From IMG/VR virus record IMGVR_UViG_3300032333_000201, positions 1 to 34,546 of that record: DNA of 34,546 nucleotides, one strand, 5' to 3'. This stretch comes from a virus. A model generated the notes under the pieces. That model was not told the origin of the DNA. It saw nothing but the letters and a program-made list of their open reading frames with translations, and searched no databases. The position numbers and the translations under genes were made by a program. Positions 2 through 34,546 of the stretch are shown piece by piece (position 1 is the stretch's first letter; each line of letters begins with the position of its first letter).

Positions 2-402
2 AAGGTATACTACGAACCAAAACAACCGCGTATGATCAGCGATGACTACACGACTGGAACTATCACGGTGACACAGGGTAGCACAACGGTAACCCATTCA
101 GGAACAGGGTTCACTGAAAGCATGGTCGGTCGGTACTTCTATGTTACGGACGGAACTGACGGTAACGACTATCAGATTGTAGATTATACCGACTCAAGTA
201 ACCTCATACTGGAGAATTACTACGAGGGGACTAGTGGTGGAACTAAAGATTTTGTTATAGGCGTAGTGCCTGACATCCCCGACGAATATATCCCATCGAT
301 ACTAGATTATTGTTACGGTAGGTATTACATACGCAGGGGAGATACTAAACTAGGCACTGATTTTCTAGGAATGTATCTGAGTGCGGTCGACGAGTGTAAA
401 GA
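2..402. repeat. Divergent terminal repeat, left copy (partner 34146-34546)
   Basis: Bases 2-402 align without gaps to 34146-34546. From 320 to 402 the match is perfect (83 bp). From 2 to 319 there are about 45 mismatches (roughly 86% identity), nearly all at third codon positions; only two residues change. The pattern shows that the contig wraps around. It also shows that the two ends come from different variants, or that the adaptor gene is really duplicated. Confidence 0.9.
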
Positions 403-7167: not shown

Positions 7168-7439
7168 TAGAGTGTTACGCCTGTATCAGATACGCCGAAC
7201 GCCTGTGTGTCTTCAAAAACCTCATCTTCTTTGCTCGGTACTACCCCACCGAAAGGACTGTATGCAGGATTGGCCGCTAGCTTTTCACGGAGTTTTTGCG
7301 AGTCACTAATGATGTTCACCATGGGGTCGGGCGATACTGGATAATCATTGTCATAGTCCTTGCCCTCACAGAGCGACATGAACTTTGCAATTTCCTCGGG
7401 CGTACCCGAGTATTCATCGCTATTTATAAATGCTCTCAT
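7167..7439 (-). CDS. Small acidic protein downstream of groEL, unknown
   Basis: 90 aa, acidic and proline-containing, largely extended or disordered, with no membrane segment. The ATG overlaps the groEL stop as ATGA, so production should be tied to chaperonin translation. It could be a partner or client of the phage chaperonin, but nothing in the sequence proves that. Confidence 0.65.
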   Translation of the reverse strand: MRAFINSDEYSGTPEEIAKFMSLCEGKDYDNDYPVSPDPMVNIISDSQKLREKLAANPAYSPFGGVVPSKEDEVFEDTQAFGVSDTGVTL

Positions 7440-9010
7440 CGTCGTACCATTTCTTTCATTTCTTTATCTGCTTCGTCGCTGAAAGTGATAATCACAGTGG
7501 TAGTTATAAGACGACTAGCGACAGAAGCGGCATTTCGCACAACCTCTTTAATGACTAGCGCGGGGTCAAGTATGCCCGCCTTGCGTAAGTCGATAGGTTG
7601 TTCTGTCGGGTTCTTTAGATCGTAACCGTATCCAACAGGCTTGGCCAGCATGTGCATGAGCTTATAGTCGGCTTTCTCGCCCGCGTTTGCCAGAAGCTCC
7701 CTAAATAGTTCCTTCAGTACGTCGTCAAAAGGAGTACCAGTGACACGAGCTAAGGCAGTACCGCCACCAGGGACAGTCCCGTCGCGTTTAGCAGCTTGCA
7801 ATGCACACACCGCGTCGTCGATGCGTAGGCGCAACTCTTCACGGTCAATATCGGTAGGAGCGCCGACCTTAACGATACCTATTTTACCTTTGAGCCGAGC
7901 GATGCGATCTTTAATAACGGTGATTGTAATACCCGCCAGCTCACCCTCAAGCTGTTTTTGTAATTCCTCGATACGGTGGTCAACGTCCACCTGTTCGCCC
8001 GCACCGTTCATAATAGTGGTAGATAATTCCTCAACCATAACGCGCTCGGCAGCACCTAGGTACTCTATGTCGAAGTTATTAAAGTTTTCACCCTGACCAT
8101 AGACACGCCCACCAGTCATAAGTGCAACATCGTCTAGTACGATTGACTTCATGCCAGAGGTAGCAGGGATGCCCGCAACTGTAGGAACGATAGAGTTTGT
8201 GCCACGCTCGGTGACAAGGTATTCTAGTGCGTCGTGGATAACCTCGCCCAGAATCAATATCTCTTTATGGCCCGCATTTTTTACACGGCTAATAATAGAA
8301 GCCATTTCTCGCGCCTCAGATATAACCTTGTCAGTTAAGAATACAGGTACTTTTTCAAAGTCAGATGATAGACTGCCACCGTCTTTCACTAGTCGTACAT
8401 CGGTGAAACCTTTACGCATATAAAAGCCATCTATGACCTCACCGTGTACGCCAAGTCCAGTATGTTCCTCGACAGTAATACCACCGTCACCAACTTCGCT
8501 CACCATTTCGGCAAGTAGTTCGGCAATAGCGTCGTCACCAGAGGAAACTTTGGCAACGTGCAGCAAGTCTTTTTCATTCAAAGGGGTCTTGATTGAATCG
8601 ATGTATTCGATGGCCTTTTCGGCCGTCTCGTCAATCATCTTCGCAACTTCCATTTGATTGTAGCCTGACCCTATAAGCTTGCGACCCGCCATATATAGAT
8701 GATACGTAAGGATAGCAACGGCAGTCGTGCCGTCACCAACGACGGCATTATTCTTCTCGCTAGCCTGTAGCACAGCTTTGGCGGCTATATTAGCAGCACG
8801 ATCTTTGATGGTCACTTTTTTCAGGTTGGTTACACCGTCGCGGGACAGTTTTGCAGCACCGATAGGCCAGTTGTGTTCATACATGACATTTCCAGCTTTT
8901 GGGCCATAAGCAGCGCGAGCCACTTCATACATAGTAGTAATACCGTCAGTTATTTTGCTTCGTGCGTCGTCACCGTAAATAATATCTTTTGCGAATAGAT
9001 CAGGCTTCAT
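7436..9010 (-). CDS. groEL: Phage-encoded group I chaperonin GroEL
   Basis: 524 aa, alignable with bacterial GroEL over its whole length (E. coli 548 aa). The three aspartates needed for ATP binding and hydrolysis are present: SRDGVT (D58, equivalent to D52), VGDGTTAVAIL (D93, equivalent to D87) and the IDDAVCALQAA motif before PGGGTALARV (equivalent to D398). The apical domain (EEHTGLGVHGEVIDGFYMRKG) is recognisable but diverged. The C-terminus ends MKEMVRR and lacks the flexible GGM tail that lines the cavity of most GroELs. It is coupled to groES, overlapping by 11 bp. It presumably folds large phage structural proteins such as the capsid protein. Confidence 0.95.
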   Translation of the reverse strand: MKPDLFAKDIIYGDDARSKITDGITTMYEVARAAYGPKAGNVMYEHNWPIGAAKLSRDGVTNLKKVTIKDRAANIAAKAVLQASEKNNAVVGDGTTAVAILTYHLYMAGRKLIGSGYNQMEVAKMIDETAEKAIEYIDSIKTPLNEKDLLHVAKVSSGDDAIAELLAEMVSEVGDGGITVEEHTGLGVHGEVIDGFYMRKGFTDVRLVKDGGSLSSDFEKVPVFLTDKVISEAREMASIISRVKNAGHKEILILGEVIHDALEYLVTERGTNSIVPTVAGIPATSGMKSIVLDDVALMTGGRVYGQGENFNNFDIEYLGAAERVMVEELSTTIMNGAGEQVDVDHRIEELQKQLEGELAGITITVIKDRIARLKGKIGIVKVGAPTDIDREELRLRIDDAVCALQAAKRDGTVPGGGTALARVTGTPFDDVLKELFRELLANAGEKADYKLMHMLAKPVGYGYDLKNPTEQPIDLRKAGILDPALVIKEVVRNAASVASRLITTTVIITFSDEADKEMKEMVRR

Positions 9011-9314
9011 CGTTTAATTCATATCCTCTTAATTTATCTAACTGTATAAAAACAATGTCGCCGTTTATGGCCGTATCGTAAAAAGTAGCATCGGCATCGG
9101 CATATTTTGCCCACCAGACTTTTTTATTTAGTAGGTCGTTAAATGTTTTTCCTTTGGCAAATTCCTTGGTGGAATCGTCTTCGTGTAGTCTGAATAGTAC
9201 GCCAGATTGTGGTGTATCAAAACGGTCGTCACCCTTAAATTGAGTTCCCTCTATTTGGGTCGTGTCAATAACCGCTAATCCATACCCTGGCATAGGGATT
9301 TTTGTTGATTGCAT
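9000..9314 (-). CDS. groES: Phage GroES-like co-chaperonin
   Basis: 104 aa. The first strand PMPGYGLAVIDTTQ matches the GroES start. A longer variable segment with SGVLF occupies the mobile-loop position, where GroES has a hydrophobic tripeptide that docks on GroEL. It ends with a GroES-like hairpin (NGDIVFIQLDKLRGYEL). It is slightly longer than GroES (97 aa) and close in size to T4 gp31. I chose the ATG at 9314, not the more distal one at 9356, because protein similarity begins here. A -10 (TGCTACAAT) also ends six bases before it, implying a leaderless message. Confidence 0.8.
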   Translation of the reverse strand: MQSTKIPMPGYGLAVIDTTQIEGTQFKGDDRFDTPQSGVLFRLHEDDSTKEFAKGKTFNDLLNKKVWWAKYADADATFYDTAINGDIVFIQLDKLRGYELNDEA

Positions 9315-9320
9315 GCGATC

Positions 9321-9350
9321 ATTGTAGCATACAGCCCAGAGTGGTACAAT
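9321..9350. promoter_or_regulatory. Symmetrical bidirectional promoter (groES minus / fibre operon plus)
   Basis: The 30-bp segment starts ATTGTA and ends TACAAT. Read leftward, TGC-TACAAT (9329-9321) is an extended -10, with TTGTAC at 9349-9344 exactly 17 bp upstream as a -35. Read rightward, TGG-TACAAT (9342-9350) is an extended -10, with TTGTAG at 9322-9327 also 17 bp upstream. Each promoter's -10 is thus the other's -35, so RNA polymerase can occupy only one orientation at a time. Confidence 0.7.
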
Positions 9351-9356
9351 GAACAC

Positions 9357-13771: not shown

Positions 13772-14788
13772 ATGGCAAATCGTAGTAAAGCACAGGTAAA
13801 TACACTGGTACCGCATCACTCTGTCACACCGCTCTGGTCGGAGAAGTCCAAAGCCGAACTAGCGCAATGGTTTTCAGACAACGGCAAGGCCAGGGCATAT
13901 CAAAACGGCGCTATCGCTACCGATCTAACTAATCCCTACACAGGTAAACCATCCTACTCACAAGCCCATCTAGCAGGGCAAAGGGTAACAGCTGCCACTC
14001 CTGACGCTACCGACGCTGAGAGAGCCGCTGGATACCGCCTAGTGCCACTGATAAGTGACATCTGGGGCATGATCACCTGGCATGCTGGTAACTGGGCAAC
14101 CAACCAGAAGTCTATCGGCATCGAAAATCTAGGCGACTATCGCAACTACACACTGCGAGACGGCGACTGTAAAGTCATTGCTGACTTCTGGCGACCACAG
14201 GACGCTAGCCTGAACGGTGCAACCGCTATCTATGGACACAGTGAAGTGTCCGATACCGCTACGGCCTGTCCAGCTAGAATCATGGAAAAGCGTGACTATA
14301 TCGTTAGCCTGGTCAACGCTGCCGCACCCGCACCAGTTGTGACGCCACCAACACCTAAACTCGTCATAACAGACATCGCCAACAAGATCGTCATAACCAA
14401 CAAGGACGCTAGCCTGTGGGATTTGAACTTTGCCTCATGGGGAGCAGCTAAGAGCCTCAAAGTACTACCAAAGGGAACAGAGCTAGAGGTATCGGCAATC
14501 GCAAAGCATCCGCTAGGTTCAAGCTACTACCTATCTGAGTACTCATACGGCAAGGGAATCAACAACGGTGTCAATGTTGGCGACGTTGCGGATAAACCGG
14601 CTGTAGTAGTACCACCAGTTGTTACGCCTCCGCCTGTAGTTACCCCACCGATCACGCCACCTACGCCCGTACCAGTTCCAACCCCTACCGTCGACGATGA
14701 GCAGAACAAGCGTCTATCCGCTATCGAGTCAATCATCAAAGCTATAACTGATTTTCTAGATCGAATATTTAAGGATTGGAGGAAGTAG
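13772..14788 (+). CDS. Endolysin: N-acetylmuramoyl-L-alanine amidase (Amidase_2-type)
   Basis: 338 aa, no signal peptide. The N-terminal zinc amidase domain has PHHS (H15/H16), an ITWHAGNW...IGIEN core (H104, E118) and GHSEVSDTATACP (H156, T164, C166), matching the His, His and Cys metal ligands of the PGRP/amidase_2 fold. Residues 195-275 form an SH3-like module. A proline-rich linker (VVTPPPVVTPP and PTPVPVPTPT) leads to a C-terminal amphipathic helix (IIKAITDFLDRIFKDWRK). It cleaves the peptide from the glycan of peptidoglycan at lysis. Strong AAGGAGGTGA ribosome binding site. It is followed immediately by a holin-like gene. Confidence 0.9.
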   Translation: MANRSKAQVNTLVPHHSVTPLWSEKSKAELAQWFSDNGKARAYQNGAIATDLTNPYTGKPSYSQAHLAGQRVTAATPDATDAERAAGYRLVPLISDIWGMITWHAGNWATNQKSIGIENLGDYRNYTLRDGDCKVIADFWRPQDASLNGATAIYGHSEVSDTATACPARIMEKRDYIVSLVNAAAPAPVVTPPTPKLVITDIANKIVITNKDASLWDLNFASWGAAKSLKVLPKGTELEVSAIAKHPLGSSYYLSEYSYGKGINNGVNVGDVADKPAVVVPPVVTPPPVVTPPITPPTPVPVPTPTVDDEQNKRLSAIESIIKAITDFLDRIFKDWRK

Positions 14789-18635: not shown

Positions 18636-18664
18636 TTGACAAATCACAAGCGGTTTGTTATACT
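18636..18664 (+). promoter_or_regulatory. Strong sigma70-type promoter
   Basis: TTGACA (18636-18641), 17-bp spacer, TATACT (18659-18664): the only perfect -35 noted in the window. The -10 lies in a small palindrome (ATACT-GAA-AGTAT), which might be an operator. Start expected near 18671. Confidence 0.85.
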
Positions 18665-18776: not shown

Positions 18777-18883
18777 TCGGCAGTTCATACCTGAGCAACC
18801 AGCCTAGCAGAGTGTGGAATCCACTCCACGACACGATAAGCTAGTGTCAAATAGCGCCGAGGTGCTTGGGTATGAATTGCCGA
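18777..18883 (+). ncRNA. Cloverleaf-like structured RNA leader
   Basis: A 15-bp closing stem (18777-18791 with 18869-18883, one G-U) encloses three hairpins. These are GAGTG/CACTC at 18810-18826, GACAC/GTGTC at 18830-18848 and AGCGC-CGAG-GTGCT at 18853-18866. It ends 16 bases before the 18900 start and its last bases precede the AAAAGGAG ribosome binding site. It does not match a riboswitch or tRNA that I know. It may be a cis-regulator of the lysozyme-like gene or a processed RNA. The stretch 18695-18776 holds no gene. Confidence 0.55.
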
Positions 18884-18899
18884 GAAAAGGAGCAAAACA

Positions 18900-19570
18900 A
18901 TGCCAAAGAATACTAAAGTAACAGAGAATAGCAAACTAAGCGAGGATATACGACCACGCAAACAACCTATAATGGTACAGTTTAAAACACTGCTACCGTG
19001 GGCGATCATCTACACAATGTTCGTAATAGGTATTAGCTTTTGGGCCGGATGGTACTATCACGGTGGTTATGCAGTGGACATTGAATCTAAAGCAAGTGCA
19101 AAAGCCGACGCTATCGTTACCGGTTTAAAAGCAGTCAAGTAGCTGTAGAAGGGCATTCATATGCTCCAGAAGCTACGCAAGATATCAAACAGGTAAAAGA
19201 TACCTTTCAAGCTACAAAGCCTCTAACCGCCTGCGAAAAGGTTAGATTAGAGGTATCTAAATACCCTGGATGGGATGTAAACATTATATTCGCTATAGCA
19301 AGAGCCGAGAATGGGACTTGTGAGCCAAAGCGACATAATCTAACAGCTAGTGAGACTCATAGAGACTCTAAGGGCAATGTTATATGTGTCGGCTCATACG
19401 GCGCACTACAGGTTGGTTGTTTACACTACGGTAAGAACGATGATGTAAACGATCTAGCTACTAACATAAGAGTGGCATATAGAGTCTATACAGAACGTAA
19501 AAAATGGTCCGGTGATGGTTATACAGCCTGGACAATGTATCTCAATACAAAGTACAAAGATAATCTATAA
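18900..19570 (+). CDS. Membrane-anchored lysozyme-like protein via -1 frameshift
   Basis: The zero frame (18900-19142) gives 80 aa with a basic N-terminus and one membrane segment (residues 31-53, PWAIIYTMFVIGISFWAGWYY). The -1 frame continues, with no usable start codon of its own, to 19570. Joining them at the slippery site 19124-19130 gives 223 aa. The second part is a lysozyme/transglycosylase-like domain: NIIFAIARAENGTCEP (candidate catalytic E137), SYGALQVG, and the final GYTAWTMYLNTKYKDNL. A signal-anchor endolysin or anchored muramidase is plausible. A one-base sequencing error or true frameshift mutation is the alternative. Confidence 0.7.
19124..19176 (+). promoter_or_regulatory. 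Programmed -1 frameshift signal
   Basis: Heptamer T-TTA-AAA (19124-19130) is in the correct zero-frame phase. After an 8-base spacer, GTAGCT (19139-19144) pairs with AGCTAC (19171-19176) and encloses a second stem, GGGCAT (19151-19156) with ATGCTC (19161-19166, one G-U). The zero-frame stop TAG is at 19140-19142, inside the stem. Slippery sequence, spacing and structure fit the classical bacterial signal. Confidence 0.7.
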
Positions 19571-28935: not shown

Positions 28936-30015
28936 ATGGTATTCAACAACAGAATCACCGACATAACGTACAACAAAATTCTCCCGAAAGTTGTTGATAC
29001 GAAGAATGATGGAAACGTTGCAACTGCACGTGTCCTCGGAGTCCAACTAGGTCGTACATGGTCTGGCCACGTACTCAACCAAACAATACAAATCGATAAC
29101 GACTCAACTGGCGGCGCTTTCGACGGCCTCGATCAGTTCTCGACTGCACAAACCAACAATACTAAGCAACTTAGCTGGTACGTTAAAGGTTACTACCAGT
29201 CGGTTGTCGCTTCTGGCATGGAGCAGGATGTTAATGCTGGCGAAGCTCAGTCTATCCGCTACTTAACGAGCATTATGGACAGGGCTAAGACTTCTATGCT
29301 TAACGGCGTAGGTGACTTGTTCTACAGTGTCGGTTCAGGTAAGAACTTTGACGGCTTCGGCCTTATCGCCGACGACTCAACTTCTACTAGTACATACGGT
29401 GGACTTGCTCGCGCTACTTACGGCGCAAACATCAACGCATACGTTGACGCAGCAGCTACACTAACATTTGAGGAAATCGCAACAGCCATCGATAGCTCAA
29501 GCGCCTCGGGTATCGAAATGGAACGACCAAACATCGGTTACATGACTCCAGCAGTATGGAGCATCTTTGAAAGTCTCCATTACGCAGCTGTCCAAGCTAA
29601 GTACGATTCAGTCGGACTAAGTGGCTACAGCACTATCAACGGTAACACACCTATCGGCCGTAGCGTACCCGCTACAGCACTACAGGGTGCTAGCGGTTTT
29701 GATAGCCTAAGCTTCCGCAAAATCCCATTTGTTGCTGACGACAAAGCTACCTCACAGACACTATTCCTTATCAACGAACACTACATGGAATTCCCAGTAC
29801 TTCGTTCAACAAGCAAGAGTGTTAAGAGCGTATCACCAAACCCAGAAGAGCAAGAGGGCTACTACAGCGAAGCGAAGCTCCCATCGAGCATTCAGTTCCG
29901 CGACATGATGGAATCTATCAACCAGTACGGTTCGGCAGGCTTCCTGATGATCATGGGTAACCTGATTCACCGTAATCCAAAACGTAACGCACGATTAACC
30001 GGAATCGTAGGATAA
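28936..30015 (+). CDS. Major capsid protein (HK97-like)
   Basis: 359 aa. RTWSGHVLNQTIQID near the N-terminus, a long spine-helix region around residues 175-225 (FEEIATAIDSSSASGIEMERPNIGYMTPAVW), and a C-terminal strand set (KIPFVADDKATSQTLFLINE) fit the HK97 fold of phage major capsid proteins. No scaffold fusion. Strong ribosome binding site AAAGGAGC. Expected to be the most abundant phage protein, agreeing with its private promoter. Confidence 0.85.
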   Translation: MVFNNRITDITYNKILPKVVDTKNDGNVATARVLGVQLGRTWSGHVLNQTIQIDNDSTGGAFDGLDQFSTAQTNNTKQLSWYVKGYYQSVVASGMEQDVNAGEAQSIRYLTSIMDRAKTSMLNGVGDLFYSVGSGKNFDGFGLIADDSTSTSTYGGLARATYGANINAYVDAAATLTFEEIATAIDSSSASGIEMERPNIGYMTPAVWSIFESLHYAAVQAKYDSVGLSGYSTINGNTPIGRSVPATALQGASGFDSLSFRKIPFVADDKATSQTLFLINEHYMEFPVLRSTSKSVKSVSPNPEEQEGYYSEAKLPSSIQFRDMMESINQYGSAGFLMIMGNLIHRNPKRNARLTGIVG

Positions 30016-33746: not shown

Positions 33747-34546
33747 ATGATTCAAACATTTACACAACTCTACCAAGAAATCCAAAGCGGCACACAAAGC
33801 ACCAGTGCTAGTGAGCTTGTATTTATCAAACGTGACGCAAACGTCGCAACACAACGCTTTAAAAGTGTTATGCGTCGTCCGTGGTCACGCGTATCAAAGA
33901 AAGCTAATACAGTAGCTAGCCAACAGGATTATCAACTACCACGTAGCGTTTTGCGTCCCACCGGTGTAGATTATTTGTCTGGTAGCACTTATTATCCACT
34001 AAAGGAAATCGCGTCGGAACAAACTTGGAATGCGTTAAATGCTACCATCGGTGCTAGTATCGGTCAGCCTATGTTCTTTTTTCCTAAAGGCAAAGACGTT
34101 ATCTCTATTTTTCCAATCCCATCAACAGCAACCACAGAGGGACTCAAGGTATACTACGAGCCGAAACAACCGCGTATGATCAGTGATGACTATACGACTG
34201 GGACTATTACGGCAACACAAGGTAGCACGACGATCACCCATTCAGGTACAGGATTTACTGAGAGTATGGTTGGTCGGTATTTCTATGTTACTGACGGCAC
34301 TGATGGTAATGACTACCAGATTGTAGACTACACCGACTCAAGTAACCTTATACTGGAAAACTACTACGAGGGAACCAGTGGCGGTACTAAAGACTTTGTT
34401 ATAGGCGTAGTCCCTGACATTCCCGACGAGTATATCCCGTCAATATTGGACTATTGCTATGGCAGGTATTACATACGCAGGGGAGATACTAAACTAGGCA
34501 CTGATTTTCTAGGAATGTATCTGAGTGCGGTCGACGAGTGTAAAGA
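33747..34546 (+). CDS. Head-tail adaptor protein, N-terminal part (3' truncated by window edge)
   Basis: Starts MIQTFTQLYQEIQSGTQSTS after AAGGATAG. The helical and beta N-terminal part (PWSRVSKKANTVASQQDYQL; FFPKGKDVISIFPIPST) is typical of podovirus and siphovirus connector proteins. From KVYYEPKQPR onward it matches the left-edge gene with only two changes. The frame is open at the last base and would be completed by 403-496, giving 297 aa. Confidence 0.7.
   Translation, partial: MIQTFTQLYQEIQSGTQSTSASELVFIKRDANVATQRFKSVMRRPWSRVSKKANTVASQQDYQLPRSVLRPTGVDYLSGSTYYPLKEIASEQTWNALNATIGASIGQPMFFFPKGKDVISIFPIPSTATTEGLKVYYEPKQPRMISDDYTTGTITATQGSTTITHSGTGFTESMVGRYFYVTDGTDGNDYQIVDYTDSSNLILENYYEGTSGGTKDFVIGVVPDIPDEYIPSILDYCYGRYYIRRGDTKLGTDFLGMYLSAVDECK
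34146..34546. repeat. Divergent terminal repeat, right copy (partner 2-402)
   Basis: Aligns at a constant offset of 34,144 to the left end. It is identical in 34464-34546 and about 86% identical before that. The change is abrupt, at 34463/34464. Confidence 0.9.

Follow-up and report, generated by a model that had tools for sequence, protein, structure and literature searches.

The virus sequence analysed here, the 34,546-base IMG/VR metagenome virus record IMGVR_UViG_3300032333_000201 (hereafter the window), contains a gene from which a single mRNA probably yields 2 products by -1 ribosomal frameshifting, a membrane anchor and a fusion of this anchor to a lysozyme-like domain. We put the probability of this reading at about 85%. 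Frameshifting was considered the best explanation. The comparison with related phages showed the split between the frames, the in-phase A_AAA and selection on both frames. Most ribosomes would terminate at 19140 and produce an 80-amino acid single-pass membrane protein with its N-terminus inside, while a fraction would slip back by one base, with the tRNA-Lys on AAA and the tRNA-Leu on TTA re-pairing at 19124-19130 and a stem at 19139-19176 aiding the slipping in the window phage. The slipped ribosomes would add a tail of 146 amino acids ending in a lysozyme/SLT-like domain, resulting in a protein of 223 amino acids with its catalytic domain outside the membrane, tethered beside the peptidoglycan. 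We infer slipping in vivo, the slip rate, the membrane topology and the enzyme activity from the sequences.

Organization of the gene in the window

The features of the locus, all on the plus strand, were as follows.

18636-18664, promoter of the gene itself, TTGACA-17-TATACT with TG ahead of the -10 element (consensus scan, 11/12)
18777-18883, long 5' leader hairpin ending just 5' of the Shine-Dalgarno sequence (fold z -6.0 to -7.0)
18887-18892, Shine-Dalgarno sequence AAGGAG of the zero-frame gene
18900-19142, zero-frame gene for the 80-amino acid membrane anchor, ATG at 18900 (sequence, hydropathy)
18990-19046, predicted transmembrane segment, residues 31-49, LLPWAIIYTMFVIGISFWA (hydropathy maximum)
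19091-19570, open -1 frame with stop codon TAA at 19568-19570
19124-19130, slippery heptamer T_TTA_AAA, in phase, with A_AAA as the conserved core
19130-19570, part of the -1 frame translated after the slip, 146 amino acids
19139-19176, two-part stem, outer 19139-19144/19171-19176 and inner 19151-19156/19161-19166 (folding)
19140-19142, zero-frame stop codon TAG
19223-19567, lysozyme/SLT-like domain (tblastn to MG269973, 62.6%; structure model; Foldseek)
19307-19309, invariant Glu codon, putative catalytic acid (14/14 domains)

The slip product is predicted to join MPKN...VTGLK to SSQVAVEG...YKDNL in the 223-amino acid fusion. An earlier interpretation made from the letters alone (the sequence-only reading) had described a zero frame, an open -1 frame and the junction of GLK with SSQVAVEG, and all of these were re-derived from the sequence. 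The same holds for its in-phase T-TTA-AAA, for the 8-nucleotide spacer (19131-19138) followed by the two-part stem, and for its startless -1 frame, as no ATG, GTG or TTG was found ahead of the lysozyme-like domain in the -1 frame of the window.

Promoter-like sequences similar to that of the window were seen by eye just 5' of the gene in 3 relatives (L002, L003 and L007 in the numbering explained below). No Rfam family, exact IMG/VR match or phage blastn match was obtained for the leader hairpin at 18777-18883. Strong structure (z about -6) was also noted in the L005 and L009 leaders, which are similar to each other.

Conservation of the split in related phages

A tblastn search of the annotated phage collection with the window domain yielded a sole match, to the TM7 phage DolZOral124_53_65 (MG269973, here L002), at 62.6% identity, and further relatives were retrieved by profile scans of IMG/VR. 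The comparison included 13 genes with upstream DNA, namely those of the window, DolZOral124_53_65 and 11 IMG/VR relatives (L003 to L007, L009 to L011, L019, L021, and L023). Left out of the split count were L008 and L022, which are cut at a contig end, and L012, which is distant and has another arrangement.

In all 13 genes, the domain was encoded in the -1 frame relative to the anchor; none was fused and none had the domain in the +1 frame. Thus, neither an extra base fusing the frames nor a relative with a continuous frame, either of which the sequence-only reading had listed as speaking against it, was encountered. A start codon before the domain was lacking in 5 of the 13 genes (window, L005, L009, L019, and L021). 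Third-position changes prevailed in both frames in nearly all pairs, and dN was 0.15 to 0.6, with dS above 1.4 or saturated, for both frames in most pairs. These values indicate that purifying selection acts on both frames. In the anchor pair of the window and L003 (dN 0.9, dS 1.2), the divergence was too high to judge selection.

The zero-frame protein of the window was only about 22% to 30% identical to those of its group, and a search with the zero frame identified only phages carrying the same cassette. The gene was present in a single copy in each of the 10 records searched, and no cellular or prophage homologues were found in genome contigs by the patterns used. A match to a Prochlorococcus podophage (27%) fell inside a large protein that is encoded in a single frame within the structural region and was regarded as no more than a distant relative of the fold. 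In L012 (1864-2250), a signal-like hydrophobic segment is in frame with the domain; it directly follows a small membrane gene ending in TAG and has no ATG, GTG or TTG start. In MG269973 (19696-20342), the "lysozyme-like domain protein" CQ476_31 covers the anchor frame only, and the -1 domain downstream is unannotated.

The proposed slip site and the downstream stem

In-phase heptamers of the form X_XXY_YYZ occurred 10 times in 6811 codons of the window, and the chance of finding one within the 17-codon overlap of the frames was approximately 0.025. The window taken alone is therefore suggestive, and it was the comparative evidence that decided the case for frameshifting.

An in-phase NNA_AAA was located at the possible frame junction in all 13 genes with upstream sequence. 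The junction was at TTA_AAA in the window, L002, L003, and L007, 3 codons ahead of the stop codon in the window and 8 codons ahead in the other 3, and the -1 peptides of L002, L003, and L007 were alike directly after TTA_AAA. In the other 9 phages (L004, L005, L006, L009, L010, L011, L019, L021, and L023), AAA was the final codon ahead of the stop codon and was preceded by A, the site taking the form A_AAA_AAA_stop or A_AAA_stop. Among the 206 ORFs of the same loci, 16 had such an A_AAA ending, some of them being the family's own genes. The slip site could be pinned in L006, L009, and L010, since the frames overlap by only 12 to 21 nucleotides. A conserved TTTAAAA, which the sequence-only reading had proposed to look for in relatives, was not borne out: outside the window, the heptamer was retained in L007 alone, and the site was reduced to the four-base A_AAA in L003, L006, L010, L019, and L023. 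The comparison indicates that the conserved unit is the A_AAA step of tRNA-Lys and not the heptamer.

The 45 nucleotides 3' of the site in the window were predicted to fold at -14.6 kcal/mol (z -3.1; z -2.0 for a 70-nucleotide stretch), and equally good folds were obtained for 3 of 300 GC-matched coding windows. The stem was strong in the window, L005, L010, L019, and several others. A stem near the site was significant at the 5% level in the window, L004, L005, L010, and L019, and not significant in L002, L003, L007, L009, and L011; in L002, L003, and L007 no stem was present at the normal spacing of 5 to 9 nucleotides. The combined p-value for the downstream stems was 6e-4 with related sequences counted as independent, and such p-values are too small because the relatives are not independent. 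A nested stem with 3 compensatory pairs was common to L006, L010, and L023. The Shine-Dalgarno-like upstream stimulator, an optional feature, was above background in L002 only.

The lysozyme-like domain and its anchor

The structure model of the domain had pLDDT values of about 64 to 93, with good confidence beyond the first 28 residues. The top PDB matches in Foldseek were c-type lysozymes, at modest scores (probability up to 0.99, E about 0.01 to 0.03, TM about 0.5). The Pfam family SLT_3 (PF18896) was matched by 5 of 14 members, with a best value of 2.7e-8, and the window domain by itself had no Pfam match. The predicted model and the SLT_3 matches in relatives agree with the lysozyme-like domain proposed by the sequence-only reading, and they support a fold of the SLT_3/c-type-lysozyme kind, in which one Glu is invariant. 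In hen lysozyme, a second acid sits near the motif that corresponds to SYGALQV here; a Ser occupies that position, which makes a transglycosylase-like mechanism plausible.

The single-pass membrane peptide of the same reading is likewise supported by hydropathy and charge, the window segment being flanked by charges of +3 on the N-side and -1 on the C-side. Each anchor had one hydrophobic segment, and the N-side charge was positive in all 13; it was higher than the C-side charge in 10, equal to it in L005 and L009, and lower in L002. The window anchor is thus predicted to be oriented with its N-terminus inside and its C-terminus outside. The domain contains many cysteines, in keeping with a location outside the membrane. 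Most probably, the fusion is a murein hydrolase that is exported and tethered to the membrane. The window helix is rich in Trp, Phe and Ile, so a permanent anchor is as likely as a release of the SAR type. Against PHROG, the zero frame gave a weak match to Rz-like spanins (0.002), for which the membrane helix composition may account.

Genome context and probable host

The gene follows exonuclease and HNH genes in the window. Among the second group of relatives (group 2), the ORFs downstream of the gene are helicase-like, a name based on sequence motif only. In L003 and L007, it is located directly after an ORF resembling the capsid gene of the window at 28936. The placement in an early region, as originally suggested, is thus upheld for the window and group 2 but not for L003 and L007.

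An amidase endolysin is encoded separately in the window (13772-14788), and Amidase_2 matches were obtained in 5 of 10 records (window, L003, L007, L009, and L023). In L004, L010, and L021, the gene shares its 3' end with a small overlapping membrane ORF. Membrane ORFs of 51 to 54 amino acids, the start of which overlaps the stop codon of the lysozyme-like frame, were observed in L014 (6366-6530), L020 (6312-6467) and L021 (625-789). The small overlapping ORF is possibly a holin-like partner.

The host group is probably Saccharibacteria (TM7), because the MG269973 record names a TM7 host. A minus-strand region of the window (7436-9010 and 9000-9356) contained a phage GroEL (PHROG 5725, 1e-92) and a probable GroES-like partner; GroEL is also present in the L003 and L007 records and in MG269973. 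The ends of the window (2-402 and 34146-34546) share an overlap of 401 bases, in which 45 mismatches fall mainly on third codon positions, and appear to derive from 2 variant strains whose genome is circular or permuted.

Alternative explanations for the split and for the function

In a metagenome record with 2 ends from diverged variants, one might suspect an indel from sequencing or assembly, or else a true frameshift mutation that disrupted the gene. However, the -1 split recurs in all 13 genes, across different records that include a complete phage genome, and purifying selection was seen in both frames; an assembly indel is excluded by the 13 splits, and the explanation as a whole is extremely improbable. 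Only slightly less so is transcriptional slippage on an A run, by which a mixed mRNA pool would fuse the frames. Runs of 7 A are available for it in L004, L005, L009, L011, and L021, but the window, L003, L006, L007, L010, L019, and L023 have only 4, and it was rejected for these four-A members. Termination-coupled reinitiation in the -1 frame, which would release a separate soluble lysozyme domain, deserves more weight and is still quite unlikely. Ribosomes could restart at the ATAATG at the stop codon in L004 and at the ATGA in L011, a GTG is located a few codons further on in L006, L010, and L023 and is also present in L003 and L007, and an ATA overlaps the stop codon in most of group 2. 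Against this stand the 5 genes without ATG, GTG or TTG before the domain, the slippery site 3 codons ahead of the stop codon in the window, and the hydrophobic segment joined in frame to the domain in L012, which is consistent with export.

With frameshifting as the preferred mechanism, its use is a weaker inference. The slip rate would likely keep the amount of tethered murein hydrolase low and in fixed proportion to the anchor peptide, which may pair with or restrain the hydrolase, and the fusion may serve as an auxiliary lysis or wall-remodelling enzyme alongside the separate amidase endolysin. We tentatively suggest, at a little under even odds, that frameshifting, which in 9 of the 13 genes would occur at the stop codon after A_AAA, determines how much of the membrane peptide carries the hydrolase, and in this way controls the timing or dosage of wall attack by Saccharibacteria phages. 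Two functional readings are compatible with frameshifting. The fusion could be a lysis enzyme of the SAR-endolysin type with the anchor alone as a pinholin-like or inhibitory partner, which is conceivable though somewhat doubtful: the single N-terminal helix with Gly and Ala in group 2, the small membrane ORF at the 3' end of the gene and the 5 of 10 records without an Amidase_2 match (some of them incomplete) agree with it, but the remaining 5 contain a separate amidase and the gene resides in an early-type module in several records. It is rather unlikely that the fusion is instead an early tethered murein hydrolase that remodels the wall, or that blocks or alters the entry of another phage, and has no role in lysis. 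Such a role would suit a gene with its own promoter and with exonuclease and HNH neighbours in the window or helicase-like ORFs in group 2, but not the position after the capsid gene in L003 and L007.

Relation to known systems

The gene resembles known cases of -1 frameshifting (dnaX, IS elements and tail assembly chaperones) in its A_AAA-type site, short overlap, frequent 3' stem and 2 products with a common N-terminus. It differs from the polymerase, transposase and tail chaperone cases in that the frames encode a membrane anchor and a murein-hydrolase-like domain, and in that the slip would occur directly at the stop codon in 9 phages. The lysin genes of CTP1L, LysIME-EF1 and Ms6 LysA also encode 2 proteins each, by internal in-frame starts that give products with a common C-terminus (PMC4777826, PMC7098653, PMC3111421), whereas here it is the N-terminal anchor that is shared and the frame that changes. 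As in SAR endolysins and membrane-tethered muramidases, there is a single N-terminal helix and a domain predicted to lie outside the membrane; unlike in SAR endolysins, frameshifting would be needed to connect the helix to the enzyme. A further counterpart is CQ476_31 of DolZOral124_53_65, which is the same gene with the same split and a different slip site (TTA_AAA_AAC).

The sequence-only reading knew of no such signal on a phage murein hydrolase. Searches of the openly accessible literature yielded no SAR endolysin or membrane-anchored endolysin described as frameshifted, nor any frameshift joining a membrane anchor to a murein hydrolase. The statement nevertheless needs softening, as lysins as such are already named among genes known to frameshift in the PRFect paper, whose citations include Shearman 1994, on a lactococcal phage lysin (PMC10885494). 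For the lactococcal lysin, too, 2 overlapping genes are reported. Frameshifting and dual-product endolysins are thus known, and it is the combination of anchor and murein hydrolase that appears to be new.

Annotation pipelines miss the enzyme, as illustrated by the lone deposited relative, in which the anchor half bears the lysozyme name and the domain is left blank. For study of a minimal slip signal, in which a stop codon comes after A_AAA, the family also offers naturally occurring variants. If the frameshifting reading is correct, phages of ultra-small, largely uncultured bacteria would use translation to set the amount of a wall-cutting enzyme joined to a membrane anchor.
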